Shown piece after piece: positions 3,807 to 58,669 of a stretch of 64,000 bases of DNA. Position numbers and translations under genes: made by a program. The notes below the pieces were generated by a model that was given only the letters and a program-made list of their open reading frames with translations, searched no databases and had not been told where the DNA came from. Origin of the DNA: a virus. Numbering within the stretch: the stretch's first letter is position 1; each line of letters starts with the position of its first letter. The stretch covers positions 1-64,000 of the IMG/VR virus record IMGVR_UViG_3300044634_002252; one strand, written 5' to 3'.

Positions 3807-4071
3807 GTTTTCGGATAAATGTGGCATCCTAGGTGAGCTATGGATGGACTACAGAGATGACGAAGAGTTCCTAGACTTCATAGAATATAATGACCTAGGA
3901 CTTCCTTTGGGTTACATGATTTCTGCTGGCATAGTTCAGACAGCAACGCCTAAGGGTGAAGAGATTATCGAAGAAACGTTCGACCTATTTCTAGGTGCTA
4001 TGAACATCAAGGATACTGGGTTCGACACTTTGGATGATGTTTTCGACAAGGCTTCAGAGGCAAAGGACTAA
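3799..4071 (+). CDS. Acidic hypothetical protein with TTG start
   Basis: It encodes 90 residues. The start is TTG at 3799, with GGAGGG 10 bases upstream, overlapping the preceding stop by 8 bases. The protein is strongly acidic (LWMDYRDDEEFLDFIEY), with no recognised domain. It ends 10 bases before a UUCG-capped hairpin and is the last gene before the gene-poor origin-like region. Confidence 0.7.
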   Translation: MTKFSDKCGILGELWMDYRDDEEFLDFIEYNDLGLPLGYMISAGIVQTATPKGEEIIEETFDLFLGAMNIKDTGFDTLDDVFDKASEAKD

Positions 4072-4081
4072 ACTAAATGAT

Positions 4082-4095
4082 CTGGCTTCGGCCAG
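4082..4095 (+). terminator. UUCG-tetraloop hairpin
   Basis: CTGGC-TTCG-GCCAG is a perfect 5-bp stem with an extra-stable UUCG loop, placed directly after the 3799 gene. No T-run follows, so termination efficiency is uncertain. Confidence 0.5.
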
Positions 4096-4274
4096 GCATT
4101 TGGCGCACCACATCTTTGCCTATTTGTCAAGGGTATTAAGATAACGATTTGATTACGATCGATCTATATTTTTCCCTGAAATATACAAACCTTTTTACCC
4201 TATAGACATTACGATCCAAACCTAAAAAATCCCAGAAAGTTGGATATAAGGTTTGGGGGTATCAATGAATACAC

Positions 4275-4283
4275 TGCTATACT
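4275..4283 (+). promoter_or_regulatory. Extended -10 promoter, leaderless for 4290
   Basis: TGC-TATACT is an extended -10 element that ends 6 bases before the ATG at 4290, so the predicted first transcribed base is the A of the start codon. No -35 hexamer is visible at the expected position. Confidence 0.6.
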
Positions 4284-4289
4284 TGATAT

Positions 4290-4484
4290 ATGAGCCCTAG
4301 AAGATACTTCCAAGTATTTAGCAATATGCCTATACCTGACTATGATAAAGATCTAGGTACTACTCTATGGTCTGCCTTTACTGCTATCAGTGGTTTTGAT
4401 AAGTTATTTAGATTTACCCCGCCTACAATCACTAATGGTTTGGATAATGATAAGGCATCTACAGATCAAGATCAAGATAAATAG
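4290..4484 (+). CDS. Small hypothetical protein inside the origin-like region
   Basis: It encodes 64 residues (MSPRRYFQVFSNMPIPDYD) ending in an acidic, Gln-rich tail. There is no Shine-Dalgarno, but the start codon is placed exactly 6 bases after an extended -10 box, as for many other genes in this window. The frame includes one of the GGTTTG repeats. Coding status is moderately supported only. Confidence 0.5.
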   Translation: MSPRRYFQVFSNMPIPDYDKDLGTTLWSAFTAISGFDKLFRFTPPTITNGLDNDKASTDQDQDK

Positions 4485-4663
4485 ACATTACGATAGTCTA
4501 AAAAATTTCGGGGAATAACCAAATCATTCTGACAAATATCCCCTATATATATAACAATAACAAACCATTTATCCCTGATATCTGGATATTTTTATAGGGG
4601 TTTTTAGCTACAAATATACAAGGTTTGGAGCTATAAAGGTTTGATATTTATATGGTTTGGCTA

Positions 4664-4692
4664 TTGACATTATGATGGTTTGAGTGTATAAT
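4664..4692 (+). promoter_or_regulatory. Consensus promoter pointing into the DnaA-box cluster
   Basis: TTGACA (4664-4669), 17-base spacer and TATAAT (4687-4692) match the consensus perfectly. The predicted start near 4699 lies 250 bases before the next start codon (4950), which has its own -10 box. The transcript would run through all four DnaA boxes, so a non-coding or primer role is possible. Confidence 0.7.
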
Positions 4693-4797
4693 GGTTTGAG
4701 AAAGATTACGATCCTTGATATTATAGGTTCCATTACACTATACTAATATCAAAACCTCTCTTCGCTATCCAAACCAATACAATCAGTAAGATCTATC

Positions 4798-4849
4798 TGT
4801 GGATAACTCTGTGTATAACTATGTTAATATGTGGATAACTTGTGTATAA
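4798..4849 (+). other. Four perfect DnaA boxes in direct orientation
   Basis: TGTGGATAA occurs at 4798-4806 and 4830-4838, and TGTGTATAA at 4810-4818 and 4841-4849. Their complements TTATCCACA and TTATACACA are the strong R1/R4-type and R2-type DnaA boxes of bacterial origins. All four have the same orientation and alternate in type, with starts 12, 20 and 11 bases apart. Confidence 0.85.
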
Positions 4850-4853
4850 AAAT

Positions 4854-4897
4854 GGGGGTATCCAAACCTCTATATGGGGGGATATGGGGCTATGGGG
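4854..4897 (+). other. Four G-tracts with quadruplex potential
   Basis: G-runs at 4854-4858, 4876-4881, 486-series 4886-4889 and 4894-4897 lie just after the DnaA boxes; the last three are separated by 4-base loops. A G-quadruplex on this strand is possible but untested. Confidence 0.4.
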
Positions 4898-4934
4898 ATA
4901 TCGCCTATCATGGTTTATTATCACTAGGGATAAG

Positions 4935-4943
4935 TGTTATACT
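4935..4943 (+). promoter_or_regulatory. Extended -10 promoter, leaderless for 4950
   Basis: TGT-TATACT ends exactly 6 bases before the ATG at 4950, the same geometry as the 4290 gene. Confidence 0.65.
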
Positions 4944-4949
4944 TAGGAT

Positions 4950-5495
4950 ATGATTGTTGATATAAATACCCCAGATTTTTCTGTAGTCCATTTCCCTAGG
5001 TCAGGTGGAAAATACTTTACTCTTAACTATTGCTCTATGAGCAATGTTGAAGGGATTCATACCCATGATATGTCCAAACTTGAAAACAAGAATGTTCTTT
5101 CTATAGTAAGAGATCCTGTAGACTGCATTGCCTCCACTGTGATAGTTGCAATTTCTAGTAATCCATTAATTGATCCAGCAAGACTGGTTGATGAATGGAT
5201 AGAGGAATACCTGGAAGCGTATAGTGCCATTTTAGACTCTAGCTCTATTTTGGTTAGGTTTAACCACGTCATAAATAGGTTTGAAGTAATTGCCAAACAG
5301 CTCTCTAGTATATTTGGACACACCATCTTAAATAACTTTAGGAATGTTGCAGCTGAGAGCATAGCCAACTATTTGCCTAGTTCAAAGCCAAATCCCAACT
5401 ACGATGATGTACGTCAGCTAGTCTCTGCTAATCCACGTATTGAGCTATGCTATGAGATATACAATGAAGCATTATCTAAGTGCATGCGGATATAA
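4950..5495 (+). CDS. Putative sulfotransferase
   Basis: This 181-residue protein has the sulfotransferase 5'-phosphosulfate loop as VVHFPRSGGKYF (residues 12-23) and a 3'-phosphate motif SIVRDPVDCIAST near residue 51. Such enzymes move sulfate from PAPS to a hydroxyl or amine. The length is short for the family. It starts 6 bases after an extended -10 box and is probably leaderless. A second sulfotransferase lies at 26799 and an APS-kinase-like protein at 25766. The acceptor is unknown. Confidence 0.7.
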   Translation: MIVDINTPDFSVVHFPRSGGKYFTLNYCSMSNVEGIHTHDMSKLENKNVLSIVRDPVDCIASTVIVAISSNPLIDPARLVDEWIEEYLEAYSAILDSSSILVRFNHVINRFEVIAKQLSSIFGHTILNNFRNVAAESIANYLPSSKPNPNYDDVRQLVSANPRIELCYEIYNEALSKCMRI

Positions 5496-5531
5496 AAAGG
5501 ATTACGATGCTTGAGCTTTGTTCCCCGAAAT

Positions 5532-48033: not shown

Positions 48034-48786
48034 CTACTTGCCAATATTTTTAGCAAGTGAATTGTACATATCCCAAGCTGAGGTGAACTCTTCACGCTCT
48101 TTGAGGGTCTCTAAATACTCTCTATGAGCCTCTGGCTTTCTTAACGGATCTATTGGATCCTGTTCTCCAGAAAACGCCCAGTCAGTTGGTGGGCAGTAGT
48201 CAAATGTAACTATCTCTAAAAATTCCCCCTCTTTCCACTCACGCTTTGGACGCCAGTGTACCTGGTTAACTGCACTAAAGATTATAGCGTCTCCAGTTTT
48301 AAGACTATATGGCTTATTGTCTATATAAATATCCCAATCTATATTTCCGTCTAGCTGGTAATTAAAAGTCACCAAGTTTTCTGTGCTATCTATATGTGGT
48401 GGCAAGGATGGCTCATACCTGCCATCACCGTATTTTAAATTATAATCAATGTAGCTATAGTGAGCAAGCTTTATTTCATTTTTATGCAATGGCTTAGAAT
48501 AAGAATCCATAACGCCTTCTACAGATTCTGGGCAGTCAAACTCAACAATGAGTCTAGACATGTGTGTCATAAGCCTAGGCTCTAGCCTGCTCTCTGTGCT
48601 TATGAATTCTTCTTTATCTCCAGGGAGGGGGTGAGATGCTAGAGGAGTTTGTTTGATTAGTTCAATTGCTTCTCTTAGCTCTGAGATCTGCTCTTCAGAA
48701 AACGGTTTTTCTATGTAGATTGGCAGGGTTGCGTTGTAATCTTTAAAGCCCGACAAAAATTTGTGCATCTTTGCAACATTAGCCAT
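48034..48786 (-). CDS. 2OG-Fe(II) dioxygenase-like protein, tandem copy 3
   Basis: This 250-residue protein has H131-x-D133 (PPHIDST), H177 (QVHWRP) and R179. The core FNYQLDGNIDWDIYI and YSLKTGDAIIFSA is shared with the two genes upstream, so three tandem paralogues exist. The N-terminal 100 residues differ between copies. This family is distinct from the P4H-like enzymes at 21-30 kb. Substrate unknown. Confidence 0.82.
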   Translation of the reverse strand: MANVAKMHKFLSGFKDYNATLPIYIEKPFSEEQISELREAIELIKQTPLASHPLPGDKEEFISTESRLEPRLMTHMSRLIVEFDCPESVEGVMDSYSKPLHKNEIKLAHYSYIDYNLKYGDGRYEPSLPPHIDSTENLVTFNYQLDGNIDWDIYIDNKPYSLKTGDAIIFSAVNQVHWRPKREWKEGEFLEIVTFDYCPPTDWAFSGEQDPIDPLRKPEAHREYLETLKEREEFTSAWDMYNSLAKNIGK

Positions 48787-49363
48787 TTGCTTCCTCCAAC
48801 TTTAAACGCCATACTTCTGACTTGTCATCCATTAACTTCGTGTGTTCTGGACCAAGCTGATTGATGTTCTCTTTAAGATATAGATGGCAGAATATCATTT
48901 CTAAAAACTCACCAACAACAAAACTTCTTTCTGGCCTCCAGTGTATCTGATGTGTTCCACTAAAAGTTAATGCCTGGTTATTCTTTAAAACAAATTCCTT
49001 GCCTTCTACGTATATTGGCCAATCAATGTTTGACCCAAGCTGGTAGTCAAATGTGAATCGTGGCTCGATAAAGGCGTCAAAGTGTGGACGTAAATTTGGG
49101 ACTTCTACTTTTCCATCGATGTCTAGCAGCTCATATCTAGAAAATTGATATTCTAACTCAAAGCCAGAAAGCCCTGTTATGTTTTCAACATGAGAAATTA
49201 TTTTGTCTTCTATGCTTTTTGGCATTCTAAAATCTGAAATTTGTTGCACATGAAGGTCCATAACATAATTGTTATAAGGCTTTTTAATTGAGCTATACAG
49301 GTCAGAAATTTCTGAGTCTGTCAATAGGTTCTCTATGACTACATTTTTTTCATCAAATTTCAA
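48779..49363 (-). CDS. 2OG-Fe(II) dioxygenase-like protein, tandem copy 2
   Basis: This 194-residue protein has H94-x-D96 (RPHFDAF), H141 (QIHWRP) and R143. The core FDYQLGSNIDWPIYV and VLKNNQALTFSG is close to copy 3. It overlaps copy 3 by 8 bases and copy 1 by 11. The shared W-x-I/L-x-V pattern suggests a common fold and possibly related substrates. Confidence 0.83.
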   Translation of the reverse strand: MKFDEKNVVIENLLTDSEISDLYSSIKKPYNNYVMDLHVQQISDFRMPKSIEDKIISHVENITGLSGFELEYQFSRYELLDIDGKVEVPNLRPHFDAFIEPRFTFDYQLGSNIDWPIYVEGKEFVLKNNQALTFSGTHQIHWRPERSFVVGEFLEMIFCHLYLKENINQLGPEHTKLMDDKSEVWRLKLEEANG

Positions 49364-49991
49364 TTGATTCCTCCATACTGTTAATGCCAGTCTTATTAAT
49401 TAAAAAGTTGGCTCGTTCTCTTAACACTTCATCCTGATCATTCTCTAGTGGCAAATCAGCTGTATACTCTAAATGACAAAATATCATGTCGATTTCTGCA
49501 TCATCTGCTATTTGCTTGTCTTCTCTCCAATGTATCTGCTGAGTTCCTGCAAAAACTAATGCCTGATTATCTTGTAGGTTATAGACATCTTCTTCTACGA
49601 CAAGCGCCCATGGCTCTGATGTTTTTAATTGAATATCAAATGTTACCCTCTGGCTTGGTCTAGTGTCATAGTGTGGGAAAAGCTTGGCCTTGTATCCAAA
49701 CTTAGGGGAGTATCTTGCAAAAGAATAATCTTTTCTAAGTACTAGATGGTCCCCCAAAGAGTTTTTGACAACTTCGTTAATCCTATCTTCAATCTCCTGG
49801 CCCAAAGATACATCCCAAACCTTGTGGCTAGCCCAAGGCTGGACCCTAGTCTGATCTTCAGAGGTATTATCAATAACTTTATAAATCTTATCGATATGAT
49901 CCTGCTCAAATATATGATCTACTACCATCACTTCAAAGTCTTGATTAGAAATATGTCTTTGAGCTGCCTTAAAGTCTTTATAAGATGTCAT
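49353..49991 (-). CDS. 2OG-Fe(II) dioxygenase-like protein, tandem copy 1
   Basis: The ATG at 49991 lies 6 bases after TATAAT (leaderless), giving 212 residues. The metal and co-substrate residues are H107-x-D109 (FPHYDTR), H154 (QIHWRE) and R156. The core FDIQLKTSEPWALVV and NLQDNQALVFAG matches copies 2 and 3. It heads the three-gene run. Confidence 0.83.
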   Translation of the reverse strand: MTSYKDFKAAQRHISNQDFEVMVVDHIFEQDHIDKIYKVIDNTSEDQTRVQPWASHKVWDVSLGQEIEDRINEVVKNSLGDHLVLRKDYSFARYSPKFGYKAKLFPHYDTRPSQRVTFDIQLKTSEPWALVVEEDVYNLQDNQALVFAGTQQIHWREDKQIADDAEIDMIFCHLEYTADLPLENDQDEVLRERANFLINKTGINSMEESIEI

Positions 49992-49997
49992 AATTAA

Positions 49998-50003
49998 ATT
50001 ATA
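49998..50003 (-). promoter_or_regulatory. -10 box, leaderless for the 2OG-oxygenase trio
   Basis: TATAAT on the minus strand, 6 bases before the ATG at 49991; no clear -35. Confidence 0.6.
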
Positions 50004-50011
50004 CACTATAC

Positions 50012-52067: not shown

Positions 52068-52288
52068 TAGCTCACCAATCCTGAAATCTTATCTGGATTA
52101 AACCCTGACCAGGACTCGCTATCAGTAATAACTACTGGTGCTGCTCTAAAGCCTTTAGAAACTATCAAGTCTAGCGCCTCTTCGTTTACTGTAATATCTA
52201 CAGTCGTATACTCAATATTCAACTTGTCCATCATTCTTTTAGTTGCATCGCATTGTACGCACGATGGCTTTGTATATACTGTAATCAT
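52067..52288 (-). CDS. nrdH: NrdH-redoxin
   Basis: This 73-residue protein has CVQC (positions 10-13), TVDITVNEEAL, and the specific NrdH end FRAAPVVI...WSGFNPDKI. It reduces NrdE and accepts electrons from host thioredoxin reductase. It is separated from nrdIEF by 10 kb but lies one base from recA and dnaE. Confidence 0.93.
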   Translation of the reverse strand: MITVYTKPSCVQCDATKRMMDKLNIEYTTVDITVNEEALDLIVSKGFRAAPVVITDSESWSGFNPDKISGLVS

Positions 52289-55200
52289 TATTTTATATCC
52301 TCCAAGATAATTGTTCCGTCTTTTGTTTTTCCAAACTCAAAAGTATATGCTGCCCCTTCTTTGATATTCATGTATGCCTTTGGAAAGGCTGTTGGGAATA
52401 CCGTTACGGAGTGAAGATTTCGGGAAGTGTCTGCCAGTGTTAGAGATGCCATCTTTTTACCAGCCTTTGTAACCCTTGGCTTAAAGGAAATAACAAACAT
52501 CTCATCTTCCTTATATGGCAACATCTTATAGTTTAAGAATTTAACTAGGGCTGATTCAGAACCCTTAATCTCGTCAACTCCGATGGCACTAACAATCCTA
52601 TTATCATTACATAAAAGAAGGTAGGTTCTGCCAGTTTCAATAGTAGTTTGCTCTTCATCAAAGATCCCGACGCTTCCTGTCTTGTCTAAAATTTCTACAC
52701 GTGACCAGCCCTTGCCACGCTTAACTGTTTTAACCATTCCCATAAGAACGTATGCGCCCTTTTCCTCGAACTCTTCTACATCATTAATAAATGCATAGTA
52801 GTGAGATGGAATATCTATGTTGAACTCTGGAAGGTTTAGATATTCATAAAGATTTTCTCTTACTTCATGCTCGTCCCTGGGATTATCTTCAAAGGTGGCA
52901 GCACCAACAAGCTTTAGGGCCTGTAGCGCACGACTATTAACTCCATTACCCTTACCAAAAGTAAAAGCCTCTAGGTCCTTATAAGAAGAGAATGGCCTTC
53001 TTGCAATATACTTTTTTGCAATATTGTCTGAGATATACTTAATCGAGCTTAAGCCAAATCTAATCCCCTTGCCCTCAATCTTAAAGTCCATGTCAGACTC
53101 GTTAATGTGTGGCAAACGAATAGAAATATTCATCCTTTTAGCCTCAATCAAATATTCAGTACGAGCATCCTTGTCCTTTTCGTTCTTAAGAACCGAATAC
53201 ATAAACTCTATCGGATAGTACTTTTTTAGCCATGCAGTCCAATAAGATAGTGTTGAGTATGCTACTGCGTGAGACTTGTTAAACGAGTATCCTGCGTGAG
53301 CTTCAAAGTCTGTCCAAAGATTTAGAGCATCATTTGGAGATAGGTACTGAGATGCTCCCTTAACAAACTTTTCCTTAAACTGATCAAACTCTTTAGCATC
53401 TTTTTTCTTACCAATAATCTTACGAACCTTGTCAGCTTCTGCCATAGTCATTCCGCCAAGCTCTGTACAGGCTTGCATAACTTGCTCTTGGTATAAAATA
53501 CATCCATAAGTTTCTGCAGTAAAAGCTTTCATTACTTGGTGGTGGTAAGAGATGTTCTGCTTACCGTGCTTACGAGCAATGTAGTCTTTACCAATAGTGT
53601 TGGCAGCACCTGGACGAACCAAAGCGTTAGATGCAGCAAGCTCTGCAAAGTTTTTAACACCCATCTTTACTAGCAAGTTTGTATATGGAGTAGCTTCACA
53701 CTGGAACACACCCTTGGTATAACCAGAAGAAAGCATTTCGTAAACTCTCTCATCTTCCATGTCAATCTCTAAAAGATTAATATCTTTTCCGCTTCTATCT
53801 TTAATAATATCAAGCGTATCTCTCAGAACAGACAATGTCTTTAGACCTAGAGCATCAATCTTGATTAGCCCAATACGCTCTGCCTCTTCCATATCTACCG
53901 CAACTACTGGGATTCTTTCTCCGCTTCCAGGAGAAGTTCTTGTTTCCATTGGAGCGTACTTGAATATCGGAGACTTTGATGTTACAACACCTGCAGCATG
54001 AATTCCTGTTCCACGAATTCGACCTCGAAGCTGCTCTCCATATTTTTCAATTTCTGGATACTTCTCACGGAACCAGACTGCCTGCTTTGATGTGCAGTAG
54101 TCATCCCAAGTATCTACAACTTTCATAACCTTATTAACATCGGTTAGAGGTATATTTAAAACACGAGCAATGTCTCTTACAACACCCTTGTCTTTAAACT
54201 GCAGAAATGTAGCAATAGATGCTACGTGACGATATTGACGAACAAGGTAGTCCTTTACCTCTTCACGACGTGAGTCCTGGATATCGGTATCGATGTCTGG
54301 AAAGTCGTTACGCTCGGGATTAATAAAGCGAAAGAAAAGCAATCCATGTGGGATAGGATCAATGTCTGTAATCTCAAGTGCATAGCACAGAAGCGAGCCA
54401 GCGGAAGATCCACGACCTGGACCAACCATGATGCCTTCCTTTTTAGCCCAAGAAATCATATTACGAACAACTAGGAAGTAAGGCCCAAAGTTCTTATCCT
54501 CAATAACCTTTAGCTCTTCATCTAGTCTAGCTAGATACTCGTCTGTATGTACACCACGTTTCTGAAGACCTGCCACTGCAATATCTCTAAGCTCTTTATT
54601 AGGATTCTGATACTGAACTGGCAATAGGTCTAGGTGATCTTGAATGTCATAGGAACTAATCTTTTCAGAAATTTCTAGTGTGTGCTGGTAGATATCTTCT
54701 CTGTCGATTTCCTGAGACTTCATTGCAGCCTTCATCTCTTCATAAGATAGAAGGTGAATCTCAAACTTGTTGAACGACATCTGACGATCAGCACCGTATA
54801 GGTAATCAAGCTTGTCCATAAGATTTTCATGCTTAAGGGACTTTTCGTATGTAGCTTCCTTTGCAATCTTATTTGCATAAGTATTAAGAATTAGCTTTAG
54901 TTCTTGAATTTCTTTTTGTCCAGCATGAGAGTGGTGACAGTCTGGGGTCACTACAGCCTTTACCCCGTACTCATCTGCCAAAGCTAAAAGTTGATGATTT
55001 ACCTCTGCTGGGTTGTGTGGCATAACCTCAATGTAGTAGTCGTCTCCAAAGACACGCTTATGCCATTCAATAATGTGCTTTGCCTCAGCTAGCTCCTCTG
55101 CCTCAATTGCTTTAGCAAGAGCTCCAGATAGACAACCAGAAAGGACTACAAGACCTTCAGAATACTTTTCCAAAACCTCATAGTCAATACGTGGCTTCTT

Positions 55201-55557
55201 GTAAAAACCCTCAGTCCACGCAATCTCATTTAGCTTATTTAAGTTTTCCAAACCAACATCATTCTTAGCAATAATGATAATGTGGTTGTAGACTAGGTCA
55301 AGCAGGCCCTTTCTTTCTTCTTTATCTCTTTGATCGAATCTGTCTTGAGTAATGTATCCTTCTACTCCTAATATCGGCTTAATGCCACTCTCACTAGCAG
55401 CTCTAAAGAACTCCCTGTGACCAGAAAGAGATCCATGGTCAGTGATTGCTAATGCATTCATACCCAGCTCTTTAGCTCGCTCTACATATTCTAATGGAGT
55501 AGCGATGCCGTCAAACAAGCTGTAATGAGTGTGGACATGTAAGCCAACATAGGACAT
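52288..55557 (-). CDS. dnaE: DNA polymerase III alpha subunit (DnaE type)
   Basis: This 1089-residue protein has an N-terminal PHP domain with intact metal ligands (HVHTHYSLFDG, ITDHGSLSG, DCHHSH). The polymerase signature GPGRGSSAGS is at 379-388. Catalytic Asp421 and Asp423 are in PDIDTD, with the third Asp at 568 in KIDALG. It has an HhH/OB C-terminal part (FISFKPR-like nucleic-acid barrel). An intact PHP may give Zn-dependent proofreading. It is the replicative polymerase of the phage; no clamp or clamp loader was seen. Confidence 0.96.
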   Translation of the reverse strand: MSYVGLHVHTHYSLFDGIATPLEYVERAKELGMNALAITDHGSLSGHREFFRAASESGIKPILGVEGYITQDRFDQRDKEERKGLLDLVYNHIIIIAKNDVGLENLNKLNEIAWTEGFYKKPRIDYEVLEKYSEGLVVLSGCLSGALAKAIEAEELAEAKHIIEWHKRVFGDDYYIEVMPHNPAEVNHQLLALADEYGVKAVVTPDCHHSHAGQKEIQELKLILNTYANKIAKEATYEKSLKHENLMDKLDYLYGADRQMSFNKFEIHLLSYEEMKAAMKSQEIDREDIYQHTLEISEKISSYDIQDHLDLLPVQYQNPNKELRDIAVAGLQKRGVHTDEYLARLDEELKVIEDKNFGPYFLVVRNMISWAKKEGIMVGPGRGSSAGSLLCYALEITDIDPIPHGLLFFRFINPERNDFPDIDTDIQDSRREEVKDYLVRQYRHVASIATFLQFKDKGVVRDIARVLNIPLTDVNKVMKVVDTWDDYCTSKQAVWFREKYPEIEKYGEQLRGRIRGTGIHAAGVVTSKSPIFKYAPMETRTSPGSGERIPVVAVDMEEAERIGLIKIDALGLKTLSVLRDTLDIIKDRSGKDINLLEIDMEDERVYEMLSSGYTKGVFQCEATPYTNLLVKMGVKNFAELAASNALVRPGAANTIGKDYIARKHGKQNISYHHQVMKAFTAETYGCILYQEQVMQACTELGGMTMAEADKVRKIIGKKKDAKEFDQFKEKFVKGASQYLSPNDALNLWTDFEAHAGYSFNKSHAVAYSTLSYWTAWLKKYYPIEFMYSVLKNEKDKDARTEYLIEAKRMNISIRLPHINESDMDFKIEGKGIRFGLSSIKYISDNIAKKYIARRPFSSYKDLEAFTFGKGNGVNSRALQALKLVGAATFEDNPRDEHEVRENLYEYLNLPEFNIDIPSHYYAFINDVEEFEEKGAYVLMGMVKTVKRGKGWSRVEILDKTGSVGIFDEEQTTIETGRTYLLLCNDNRIVSAIGVDEIKGSESALVKFLNYKMLPYKEDEMFVISFKPRVTKAGKKMASLTLADTSRNLHSVTVFPTAFPKAYMNIKEGAAYTFEFGKTKDGTIILEDIK

Positions 55558-55565
55558 AGACTATA

Positions 55566-56222
55566 TTACCAATCTATGTTCGAACTAGCGGTGGATGACG
55601 GTGTGTCAAACCCTAGGTAGAAAGCCTCTTGCTCAGCGTATGGCACCTTGCTCAAAGCAGACTCTAGTGGGTATGGACGGATATCGGCCCATACAAATGG
55701 TTCCTTGTCTGGAGTTGAAGGGATAAGGGTGTAGCTTGTCTCTGTACCCTGACCATTCCTCTTTAGCTTCCAGGTCTGGTTTGAAATGCTTCCAGTCTCA
55801 AGCGCAAACTCACGAATAGTGTTGAATGCAGACTGCTTGCTTACACCCATAGACCAGATAGCAACGTATGGGTCTTCTAGTCCATCGTCAACAAGGACGT
55901 TGCAGTAGAAGCGGAGACGTGCTCTCCATCCAGCCTTTGGATCTTTTCTGTGCATCTCTTCTGCCCAGTCTCGACCTTCGGTGTCCATAGTATCTACAGC
56001 CTTACGTCTGTAATCCTTCGGATTTGTGTGTTCCTTTACAACAAGTGCAAGACCACGCTCTTCAGAATAGCTTGAGCTATCCTCGTCCAGCTCTTCAATG
56101 AAACGAATCTTTACAGACTGTCCATCTGCTAGCTTTAGCCAGCGAACCTTAGCCTTGTTCTCATCATACTTTGGCTTATCAAGTAATGCGTTGATATTCT
56201 TTAGCCCTTTTACTACGCTCAT
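55566..56222 (-). CDS. Putative single-stranded DNA-binding protein
   Basis: This 218-residue protein begins SVVKGLKNINALLDKPKY. It has an OB-like central region (SVKIRFIEELDED and ARLRFYCNVLVDD) and ends SSTASSNIDW, an acidic-aromatic tail typical of SSBs. It sits between dnaE and primase, where phages such as T4-like and actinophages carry gp32-like proteins. An embedded promoter precedes it. Confidence 0.65.
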   Translation of the reverse strand: MSVVKGLKNINALLDKPKYDENKAKVRWLKLADGQSVKIRFIEELDEDSSSYSEERGLALVVKEHTNPKDYRRKAVDTMDTEGRDWAEEMHRKDPKAGWRARLRFYCNVLVDDGLEDPYVAIWSMGVSKQSAFNTIREFALETGSISNQTWKLKRNGQGTETSYTLIPSTPDKEPFVWADIRPYPLESALSKVPYAEQEAFYLGFDTPSSTASSNIDW

Positions 56223-56245: not shown

Positions 56246-57190
56246 TTATTTTAGCATTGAAGCGATTGATTTGTCAAATGATTCGTCCAATTGCTTGATT
56301 TCGTCATCTGACATATCGCCTATATCTTTATATTTTTTATTTAGTTGTATTACGATAACACGAGATCCAAGATTTTCTACAATCTTGTCTTTCATGTTAC
56401 CGCCTGCTTCATCATTATCTGCAATAACGCAAATGTTATTGAAGTATTTTTTGAGTAGGTCTATTTGGTAGTTAGAGACATTCGACCCTAGAGTAGCTAC
56501 CGCTGGGAAGCCACACTGATCTAGCCTAATTGCATCAAAAGATGACTCAACTACGTAAACTTTTTTAGATGCCTTGACCCTGTGGAGATTAAATAGCACC
56601 TTTGCTTTTGGAAGTCTTGGGGTGTTTTTAAAGTCTTTGCCCTCAACTGATCTACCCACAAATCCAACTTCCATACCGTCTGGAGAGTGAACTGGAACAG
56701 TTACCATATCTTGTTTTTCAGAATAACCAAGCCAAAACTTTTTTACAGAAGCTTCTGAGATGAGTCTGCCTTCAAAATACCTCATGGCTCTTGGTGACTC
56801 TAGTGCCTGAGAGTTAAGTCTTTTAATAGACACCTGATCGTACTGAACGTATTCTGGAATATCCACTAGCTTCTTGTTGACTCTATCTAAAACAGAAGAG
56901 CTCTCTTCTTTGCTTTTTATAAATCTAACAGCCTCAAAGTATTTTCTACCAGAGAAATGCATGACCAGCTCAATAAAGTCACAAACGTGGTGGCATGAAA
57001 AACAAAAGAACACTCCAGTGACCTTGTCAACTTCTCCTGCTGGAGTTCTGTTGTTGGCGTGAAATGGACAAAAGATAATAAAGTCAGTATCTACTTCTGA
57101 CTGGACCTCTAGGCCCGTTCCTTCAAGAACTCTCTTAATTTGCTCTCTTGTATATAGATTGGTTTTGTTTCGTCTATTCCCAGTATCCAT
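56246..57190 (-). CDS. dnaG: DnaG-type primase
   Basis: This 314-residue protein has the CHC2 zinc motif C41-P-F-H44 and C63-F-S-C66 (FFCFSCHHVCDFI). The TOPRIM catalytic residues are in YVVESSFDAIRL and VIADNDEAG (D-x-D). It is shorter than bacterial DnaG and lacks the C-terminal helicase-binding domain, as is common in phages. It overlaps the upstream gene by 82 bases, and a promoter lies inside that gene. Confidence 0.92.
   Translation of the reverse strand: MDTGNRRNKTNLYTREQIKRVLEGTGLEVQSEVDTDFIIFCPFHANNRTPAGEVDKVTGVFFCFSCHHVCDFIELVMHFSGRKYFEAVRFIKSKEESSSVLDRVNKKLVDIPEYVQYDQVSIKRLNSQALESPRAMRYFEGRLISEASVKKFWLGYSEKQDMVTVPVHSPDGMEVGFVGRSVEGKDFKNTPRLPKAKVLFNLHRVKASKKVYVVESSFDAIRLDQCGFPAVATLGSNVSNYQIDLLKKYFNNICVIADNDEAGGNMKDKIVENLGSRVIVIQLNKKYKDIGDMSDDEIKQLDESFDKSIASMLK
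56248..56277 (-). promoter_or_regulatory. Promoter at the 3' end of the primase gene, for the SSB-like gene
   Basis: TTGACA (56277-56272), 18-base spacer and TAAAAT (56253-56248, preceded by TGC). The leader carries TAGGAG before 56222. Confidence 0.72.
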
Positions 57191-57448: not shown

Positions 57449-58669
57449 CTACTTATCCTCAAAGTCCTTGTATCTGTACCAGCCCTTATCAAAGTCTACC
57501 TGGACCAAAAAGTCGCCCATAAACCCATTACGATTCTTTCTAAATACACACTCAATAATATCGCTGTTTGTTGCACGGCCCAACGCTAAGACCCAGTCTG
57601 CATCGTAAGCAATCTGTCTAGACCAAGCTGTTTGACCAAGCGTTGGAACAGTGTCAAGCTTTGTTACGTCATCTGGAGTTGCTGAAGAGATTGCCATAAT
57701 TGGGACCTGCTCAGAAATTGCCATAAGCTTTAGCTCTCTAGAAAGATTCTTCATCCTAACAGTTTCATTCTCGGACTTCTGGTTTGGAGACATTAGTTGC
57801 AAATAGTCTACGACAACAAAGTCTGGCTTGTACTGATCTAGCTTTCCTCTAAGTACAGAAGGGTTTACATCTCCACCACTATCATTGGAAATAATATGAA
57901 ACTCTGGCTTGCCTTCAAGATTCTTTTCGTGCCACTTAGCTAAGTCTTCTAGATCTACCTGACCACTCGAAAGCTTTCTATGTGACCAAAGGCCTTCGCC
58001 CATGATTGCATAAACACGATTACGAACTTCGGTTTCGCTCATCTCAAGACTTACGATCATTGGAGACTTACCCTGCTTCCAAGCCTGTACCGCAAAGTAT
58101 AAAGATAGCCAAGACTTACCGATACCAGGATACGCAAGAAACACGCCAAGCTGTCCTGGCATAATTCCAGAAGGAAGGTAGTTGTCAAAACCTGGCAAAC
58201 CAGTTTTGATTCCAAGCATACCCAGCTCTTGCTCTCTTTGAAGCTTCTTATAGTATTCTACAGCGGAAGCCAAATCAGTAGCATCAATATCTCGAATTGC
58301 AGAGGTATTCTTTTTAAGCTCTGAGGTCTTTGTAATAAGTGTCTCAAGGGCGTTAACACTACTACCGCCCTGGATCTCTGTCGCTGCAGAAACTAGAATT
58401 TCTTTTATGCTGCTTTCAAGGTACTCCCCTTGCAGCTCTTCTAGGTGGTGCTTGGTGGCACCCACTCCTTCAACTGGAGAAAAGTCTCTAAACTTGTCGA
58501 CTACTACTGACTTGGGCGGAACTGATCCATTAATCTCAGCATACTTACGAATAAACTCCCAAATATCTGTGTGCGTTCTTAGAAGCTTTTCTACGTCTGC
58601 TTGAAGCAGGACGTGCAGCTGCTTATCCTCCAGGACTGCAGATATTAGTTTATCTTCTACGCTACTCAC
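57449..58669 (-). CDS. dnaB: DnaB-type replicative helicase
   Basis: This 406-residue protein has the RecA-like ATPase with Walker A YPGIGKSW (180-187), IVSLEMSETEVRNR and Walker B FVVVDYLQLM. It also has a C-terminal LGQTAWSRQIAYDADWVLAL sensor region. The N-terminal helical domain is shorter than that of bacterial DnaB. It overlaps the upstream small gene by 8 bases. It unwinds DNA at the fork with phage primase. Confidence 0.93.
   Translation of the reverse strand: MSSVEDKLISAVLEDKQLHVLLQADVEKLLRTHTDIWEFIRKYAEINGSVPPKSVVVDKFRDFSPVEGVGATKHHLEELQGEYLESSIKEILVSAATEIQGGSSVNALETLITKTSELKKNTSAIRDIDATDLASAVEYYKKLQREQELGMLGIKTGLPGFDNYLPSGIMPGQLGVFLAYPGIGKSWLSLYFAVQAWKQGKSPMIVSLEMSETEVRNRVYAIMGEGLWSHRKLSSGQVDLEDLAKWHEKNLEGKPEFHIISNDSGGDVNPSVLRGKLDQYKPDFVVVDYLQLMSPNQKSENETVRMKNLSRELKLMAISEQVPIMAISSATPDDVTKLDTVPTLGQTAWSRQIAYDADWVLALGRATNSDIIECVFRKNRNGFMGDFLVQVDFDKGWYRYKDFEDK

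Follow-up and report, generated by a model that had tools for sequence, protein, structure and literature searches.

The DnaA-box cluster and its noncoding gap

The window considered here, which is the whole stretch of 64,000 nucleotides that was analysed and which belongs to a 90,139-base IMG/VR contig without end repeats, contains a noncoding gap with an origin-like module. The gap, delimited by the ORF list, follows a plus-strand ORF ending at 4071, precedes the plus-strand ORF 4950-5495, and is poorer in GC (34.5%) than the contig (40%). The features of the module are as follows:

4072-4949, no strand: noncoding gap with the origin-like module, 878 bp
4841-4849, minus strand: DnaA box TTATACACA, R2 type, exact match
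4830-4838, minus strand: DnaA box TTATCCACA, R1/R4 type, exact match
4810-4818, minus strand: DnaA box TTATACACA, R2 type, exact match, distal member of the trio-proximal pair (3-bp gap)
4798-4806, minus strand: DnaA box TTATCCACA, R1/R4 type, exact match, trio-proximal
4793-4797, minus strand: 5-nt spacer, GATAG on the box strand
4772-4792, minus strand: seven DnaA-trio-like triplets, ATC TTA CTG ATT GTA TTG GTT on the box strand, with T periodicity; predicted start of unwinding
4724-4818, minus strand: whole conserved module (box pair, spacer, trios and flank), matched at E=2e-11 by a profile whose training set left this genome out

The earlier note had described four perfect DnaA boxes in tandem at 4798-4849, and this description is exact: the boxes lie where it placed them, all on the minus strand, co-oriented and alternating in type, with start-to-start distances of 12, 20, and 11. 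It had also held that they exceed chance expectation, which is borne out by their clustering and by their conservation in relatives (see below). The six TTWTNCACA words in the 64-kb window are not above chance (mean 7.5), and the 90,139-base contig holds only one further TTATMCACA (at 65801). In 20,000 Markov-1 simulations with the composition of the gap, however, no sequence had more than two TTATMCACA, nor did any of 300 Markov-1 windows of 64 kb contain a 52-bp segment with more than two TTWTNCACA. The unusual feature is the clustering of the boxes, not their total. The ORF that adjoins the module (4950-5495) has by eye a sulfotransferase-like N-terminus (FPRSGGKYF, RDPVDC) and no Pfam or PHROG match.

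A DnaA-trio-like track beside the boxes

The search for elements of the bacterial basal unwinding system (BUS) in PMC8287927 looks for two boxes separated by no more than 3 bp, a spacer of up to 16 bp and at least three 3'-NAN-5' triplets, while a GC-rich spacer of about 4 bp is described as typical, yet is not demanded by the search program. At the phage locus, the co-oriented boxes starting at 4798 and 4810 are separated by 3 bp, the spacer measures 5 nt, as in most homologues, which is within the range of 0-16 bp, and seven consecutive triplets follow (three to seven in relatives), whose middle T on the box strand corresponds to 3'-NAN-5' on the other strand. GATAG, with G or C at two of five positions, is not GC-rich, but this is an optional and not a defining feature of the BUS. 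On these sequence features the locus qualifies as a putative BUS, save for the optional GC-rich spacer. The polarity of boxes relative to triplets appears to agree with what we take to be the arrangement in Bacillus subtilis, and is the same in the bacterial locus L376. Seven middle T's in a single AT-rich sequence would not be remarkable by themselves.

Conservation among viral contigs

Comparison of relatives revealed a conserved word, AT(C/G)TTACTG, after the boxes. The module TTATCCACA-N5-AT(C/G)TTACT occurs in at least about 80 IMG/VR contigs, and the scan pattern TTATCCACA-N(2-28)-ATSTTACTRA matched at least 120 stretches. Among the matches listed, the gap between box and word is nearly always restricted to a few fixed lengths, since the boxes of the pair are 11-12 bp apart and the trio-proximal box lies 5 nt from the word; the box pair with its 2-3 bp gap is likewise kept in the listed relatives, and some listed loci (e.g., L277, L302, and L316) resemble chance matches. 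With spacers of 1-9 nt permitted, the spacer is 5 nt long in 93 and 3 nt in 6 of the approximately 101 listed loci (one of 102 was left out of the phase count).

Since the loci were chosen by a word that covers the first three triplets, those three carry no independent weight. Outside the searched motif, T occupies the middle position at frequencies of 0.88, 0.83, 0.90, and 0.60 in 48 non-redundant loci (mean 0.80), against an average of 0.49 in one of the remaining phases and 0.36 in the other; at the next predicted middle position it falls to 0.25, and the off-phase position 15 is also T-rich (0.90). The three-base periodicity of T is clear, though imperfect. The word is moreover present in all six contigs that were picked without it, namely this window and G014, G028, G029, G031, and G032, the latter five having been picked by their polymerase and box pairs.

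A profile built without the test genomes detected a single complete module per contig in all 14 large contigs, with E-values from 9e-20 to 6e-4 (the weakest in G014), while its other matches in these contigs were partial, mostly isolated box pairs. In 11 contigs whiB and the module are on one stretch; there, with the direction of the module taken as forward, whiB is on the same strand and 12-22 kb upstream. The same applies to G029 and G059 if the contig is taken as circular; the fourteenth, G053, gave no whiB match. In many relatives, AGTGGA repeats about 10 bp apart come right after the trios; these are degenerate in this phage. The count of boxes over contig and relatives that the earlier note had proposed gave a single extra TTATMCACA in the contig and a box cluster in 14 of 14 large relative contigs that carry the module. 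Conservation in close relatives, on which its reading was made to depend, extends to all 14 module-bearing large contigs and, in looser form, to most of the cultured Streptomyces relatives examined.

Several relatives have extra intergenic DnaA box pairs exactly 12 bp apart (G028:64468-64488 and 68304-68324, G029:5845-5865, G031:82858-82878, G032:8109-8129, and G014:111085-111105). Some stand beside small genes, and such pairs are possible DnaA-controlled promoters or titration sites. In another IMG/VR scan, TTATACACA-TTATCCACA pairs, commonly 11-13 bp apart, were also seen in many viral contigs that lack the trio word (L089-L208), and box pairs seem to be common in viruses.

Strand-specific repeats downstream of the module

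Downstream of the module lies a bipartite motif, approximately CGGGGAAAATTA-N-TCGTAATCTCTTTT (in short form GGGGAAAA...TCGTAAT), which is always on the box strand there. The copies near the module of this phage are:

4705-4712, minus strand: octamer ATCGTAAT, copy 1, weak bipartite site (score 15.1)
4487-4494, minus strand: octamer ATCGTAAT, copy 2, bipartite site (score 25.5)
4208-4215, minus strand: octamer ATCGTAAT, copy 3, bipartite site (score 26.1)
4152-4159, minus strand: octamer ATCGTAAT, copy 4, bipartite site (score 24.5)
5501-5508, minus strand: further copy of the bipartite motif

When a weight matrix was trained on other loci and applied to the 14 genomes, it found 72 forward and no reverse sites between -100 and +1200 of the module. 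In 60 further loci, none of them from these genomes, the octamer ATCGTAAT occurs 99 times in forward and never in reverse orientation within 1 kb downstream of the module, against an expectation of about 9. Other copies of the bipartite motif occur elsewhere in the genomes, mostly in the same orientation, and some lie within about 100 nt of leftward gene starts. The flanks contain no fixed second element beyond the GGGG part and no consistent gene start follows, which makes an ordinary promoter seem less likely. The motif could serve in priming or loading, in binding a protein, or in regulation. A different repeat, GGTTTG/CAAACC, has 12 of its 58 copies in the contig within the gap, in both orientations; it is strongly enriched in this phage and in 5 of 13 relatives, and was rejected as a general origin component because it is near background in 8 of the 14 genomes.

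Replication genes, host and the search for an initiator

The earlier note had credited the phage with polymerase, primase, and helicase genes; all three were matched, together with a single-strand DNA-binding protein (SSB):

57449-58669, minus strand: DnaB-like replicative helicase (phrog_19, E=5e-65)
56246-57190, minus strand: DNA primase (phrog_47, E=1e-53)
55566-56222, minus strand: SSB (phrog_9721)
52288-55557, minus strand: DnaE-type DNA polymerase (57% identity to that of Streptomyces phage BillNye)
23836-24009: whiB (gene match)

An exonuclease subunit and a RecA/UvsX-like recombinase are encoded as well. The full-length polymerase is 57% identical to the enzymes of Streptomyces phages of the Stanwilliamsviridae, and the phage has the traits of that family in its DnaE-type polymerase, SSB, primase, helicase, and whiB. 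Blastn of the module region against named phages gave no match. WhiB is an actinophage marker (PMC10202952). Because of WhiB and the relatives of the polymerase, the host is likely an actinobacterium, an assignment to phylum level; more narrowly, we infer a low-GC freshwater actinobacterium. Neither an integrase nor ParA was found in this phage or in 16 relatives, and the module is therefore not obviously a prophage origin or a maintenance origin of a plasmid-prophage. Elsewhere in the window, three consecutive ORFs (48034-50006) each weakly match phrog_2954, labelled ferrochelatase, and are possibly a tandem duplication.

Profile searches of 17 phage genomes, in which control genomes were positive, gave no match to Pfam Bac_DnaA, nothing above the cut-off for Bac_DnaA_C and only sub-threshold matches to IstB (the DnaC-type loader). 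The one sub-threshold Bac_DnaA_C match (80185-80277) was rejected as a DnaA, being far under the cut-off (E=0.007, 13 bits) and missing from the relatives. The IstB matches were rejected as well, since they cover about 30 profile positions within a frame of 406-410 amino acids that in this phage is the DnaB-like helicase. No Rep initiator was seen among the annotated proteins that were searched, a minority of the phage's proteins, and the repeats of the region are irregularly spaced. The view that the phage has no initiator gene of its own thus stands as far as DnaA and a DnaC-type loader are concerned, in genomes where many genes have no assigned function; a novel initiator among the uncharacterised proteins is possible.

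Proposed function and alternatives

In B. subtilis, DnaA sits on a co-oriented pair of boxes and directs an ATP-DnaA filament to the neighbouring triplets, where the filament captures bases and parts the strands (PMC6669920, PMC10721633). Because the phage module shares this anatomy, the opening of a phage origin by host DnaA is its most likely function. The site is probably a DnaA-dependent origin of a virulent actinobacterial phage, with binding, melting, and initiation all predicted from the sequence. Host DnaA would bind the tandem boxes from 4849 to 4798, and an ATP-DnaA filament would be guided from the trio-proximal pair over the 5-nt spacer onto one strand from 4792 to 4772. By capturing the central A of every triplet, it would melt the AT-rich DNA toward lower coordinates (from 4792 toward 4072). 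The phage's DnaB-like helicase, primase, SSB, and DnaE polymerase, or host equivalents, would then assemble, the helicase being the likely cargo of the opened origin. This is the role for host DnaA that the earlier note had predicted, and it gains from the conservation of the boxes in relatives, from the trio track that adjoins them and from the 17 genomes in which neither DnaA nor a loader was detected.

The GC-skew profile that the earlier note had proposed as a check gave no support. Read in the orientation of the boxes, skew is plus before the site and minus after it in most of the 14 genomes, the reverse of the textbook bidirectional bacterial origin, and the gene block downstream points toward the module in all 14. 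When third-codon-position skew was split by gene strand, the two strands gave opposite answers. Skew is uninformative here, because it tracks gene strand and because the strand-split results contradict each other.

That an AT-rich gap should have acquired box-like words by accident of composition can be dismissed almost entirely: the low GC content would favour such words, but the Markov simulations and above all the conservation of the module in 14 large contigs refute it. Titration of DnaA at datA-like sites is known in bacteria, and the boxes might be a sink that withdraws host DnaA and stops host replication, or a DnaA-controlled promoter, with phage replication beginning elsewhere or by recombination. 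The extra 12-bp-spaced pairs of the relatives, some of them upstream of small genes, and the RecA/UvsX-like recombinase speak for this; yet a sink would need neither a triplet track at a nearly fixed distance nor a single syntenic copy per genome, and a contig with one further TTATMCACA offers too few boxes for much titration, so that we hold this explanation to be improbable.

A phage initiator of an unfamiliar type could also be the true starter, acting at the GGGGAAAA...TCGTAAT or GGTTTG repeats with DnaA in a helper role, which is the situation at iteron origins like P1 oriR. In its favour are the strand bias of the bipartite motif, which clusters within 1.2 kb downstream of the module, and of the octamer, and the many phage proteins without assigned function. 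Against it stand the lack of any known initiator family among the annotated proteins, a minority, that were searched, the irregular spacing of the repeats, which is unlike that of iterons, and their copies elsewhere, some upstream of genes; the full arrangement of boxes and DnaA-trios would moreover be superfluous. This reading is unlikely, although we give it some weight. An extension of the preferred reading, opening by host DnaA, is a hybrid viral origin in which the host-type box/trio opener is coupled to the phage-specific, strand-oriented bipartite signal (GGGGAAAA-N-TCGTAAT, in several box-strand copies downstream), which would direct loading or priming of the phage replisome and set the polarity of replication. 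We propose this only tentatively.

Comparison with known origins

The closest bacterial counterpart is incC of B. subtilis with DnaA-boxes 6/7 and DnaA-trios (PMC6669920, PMC8287927, PMC10721633), with which the module shares co-oriented boxes, a short spacer, three or more triplets whose middle A is conserved on one of the strands, and AT-rich DNA beyond. It differs in belonging to a genome that has its own replisome and in which no dnaA was detected, in a spacer that is not GC-rich, in triplets of the form TAG/TAC-AAT-GAC in place of a repeated 3'-GAT-5', and in the phage-specific, strand-oriented repeat that follows. A scan of genome contigs for host origins with the same box-box-trio wording gave four matches, none in an actinobacterial chromosome and one probably in a misbinned phage contig. 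One module-bearing contig, binned in a Chitinophagaceae genome in GTDB (L374), is probably a misbinned phage contig. A contig of Candidatus Uhrbacteria (L376:2645-2677) shows a box-box-ATGTTACT arrangement near a parS-like TTTCACGTGAAA, possibly the chromosome origin of that organism.

Among phages, members of the Stanwilliamsviridae (BillNye, Wakanda, Blueeyedbeauty, Jay2Jay, and others) usually have two to four noncoding TTATCCACA sites at a similar position. In BillNye, four of the seven sites in 127 kb lie at 119.4-119.7 kb, beyond whiB, and the gene block for helicase, primase, SSB, and DnaE is common to the family and this phage. Of seven other Streptomyces phages, six have two or three sites at the apparently corresponding place and one, Bmoc, has a single site; in Wakanda and Blueeyedbeauty the box region is a noncoding gap of 1.4-1.5 kb, and the Loccivirinae have two groups of boxes with about 250 bp between them. 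No trio track was recognisable beside the boxes of the Streptomyces relatives examined, and no publication on these box clusters was located.

T5-like phages (Demerecviridae), an unrelated lineage with unrelated hosts, carry a conserved noncoding element of 121 bp in which DnaA boxes 12 bp apart are followed by TTATCCTACTG. It was matched in 544 phage records, mostly from phages of Salmonella, Escherichia, and Klebsiella, and among the matches listed it usually occurs at two places per genome (e.g., L435:930-1050, which is Salmonella phage vB_SenS_UTK0009, 5840-5960). By analogy, box-based phage origins may be more widespread. In phages lambda and P1, too, host DnaA boxes lie near the origin, and DnaA assists the phage initiator; unlike the present phage, in which no comparable initiator was detected, both rely on phage initiators (O and RepA, respectively) and on iterons.

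Significance for phage replication

For many phages, opening of the origin is ascribed to phage initiators or to transcription. The module described here would, by analogy, work like a bacterial BUS origin, and a literature search, incomplete in that most subscription journals were outside its coverage, turned up no description of a phage origin of this kind. If the module does work in this way, a large group of virulent freshwater phages would possess a compact BUS-like origin that ties their replication to host DnaA and its regulation. Their genomes would then offer many natural variants of the DnaA-trio for study, and the module would provide a sequence signature for locating origins in uncultured phages.
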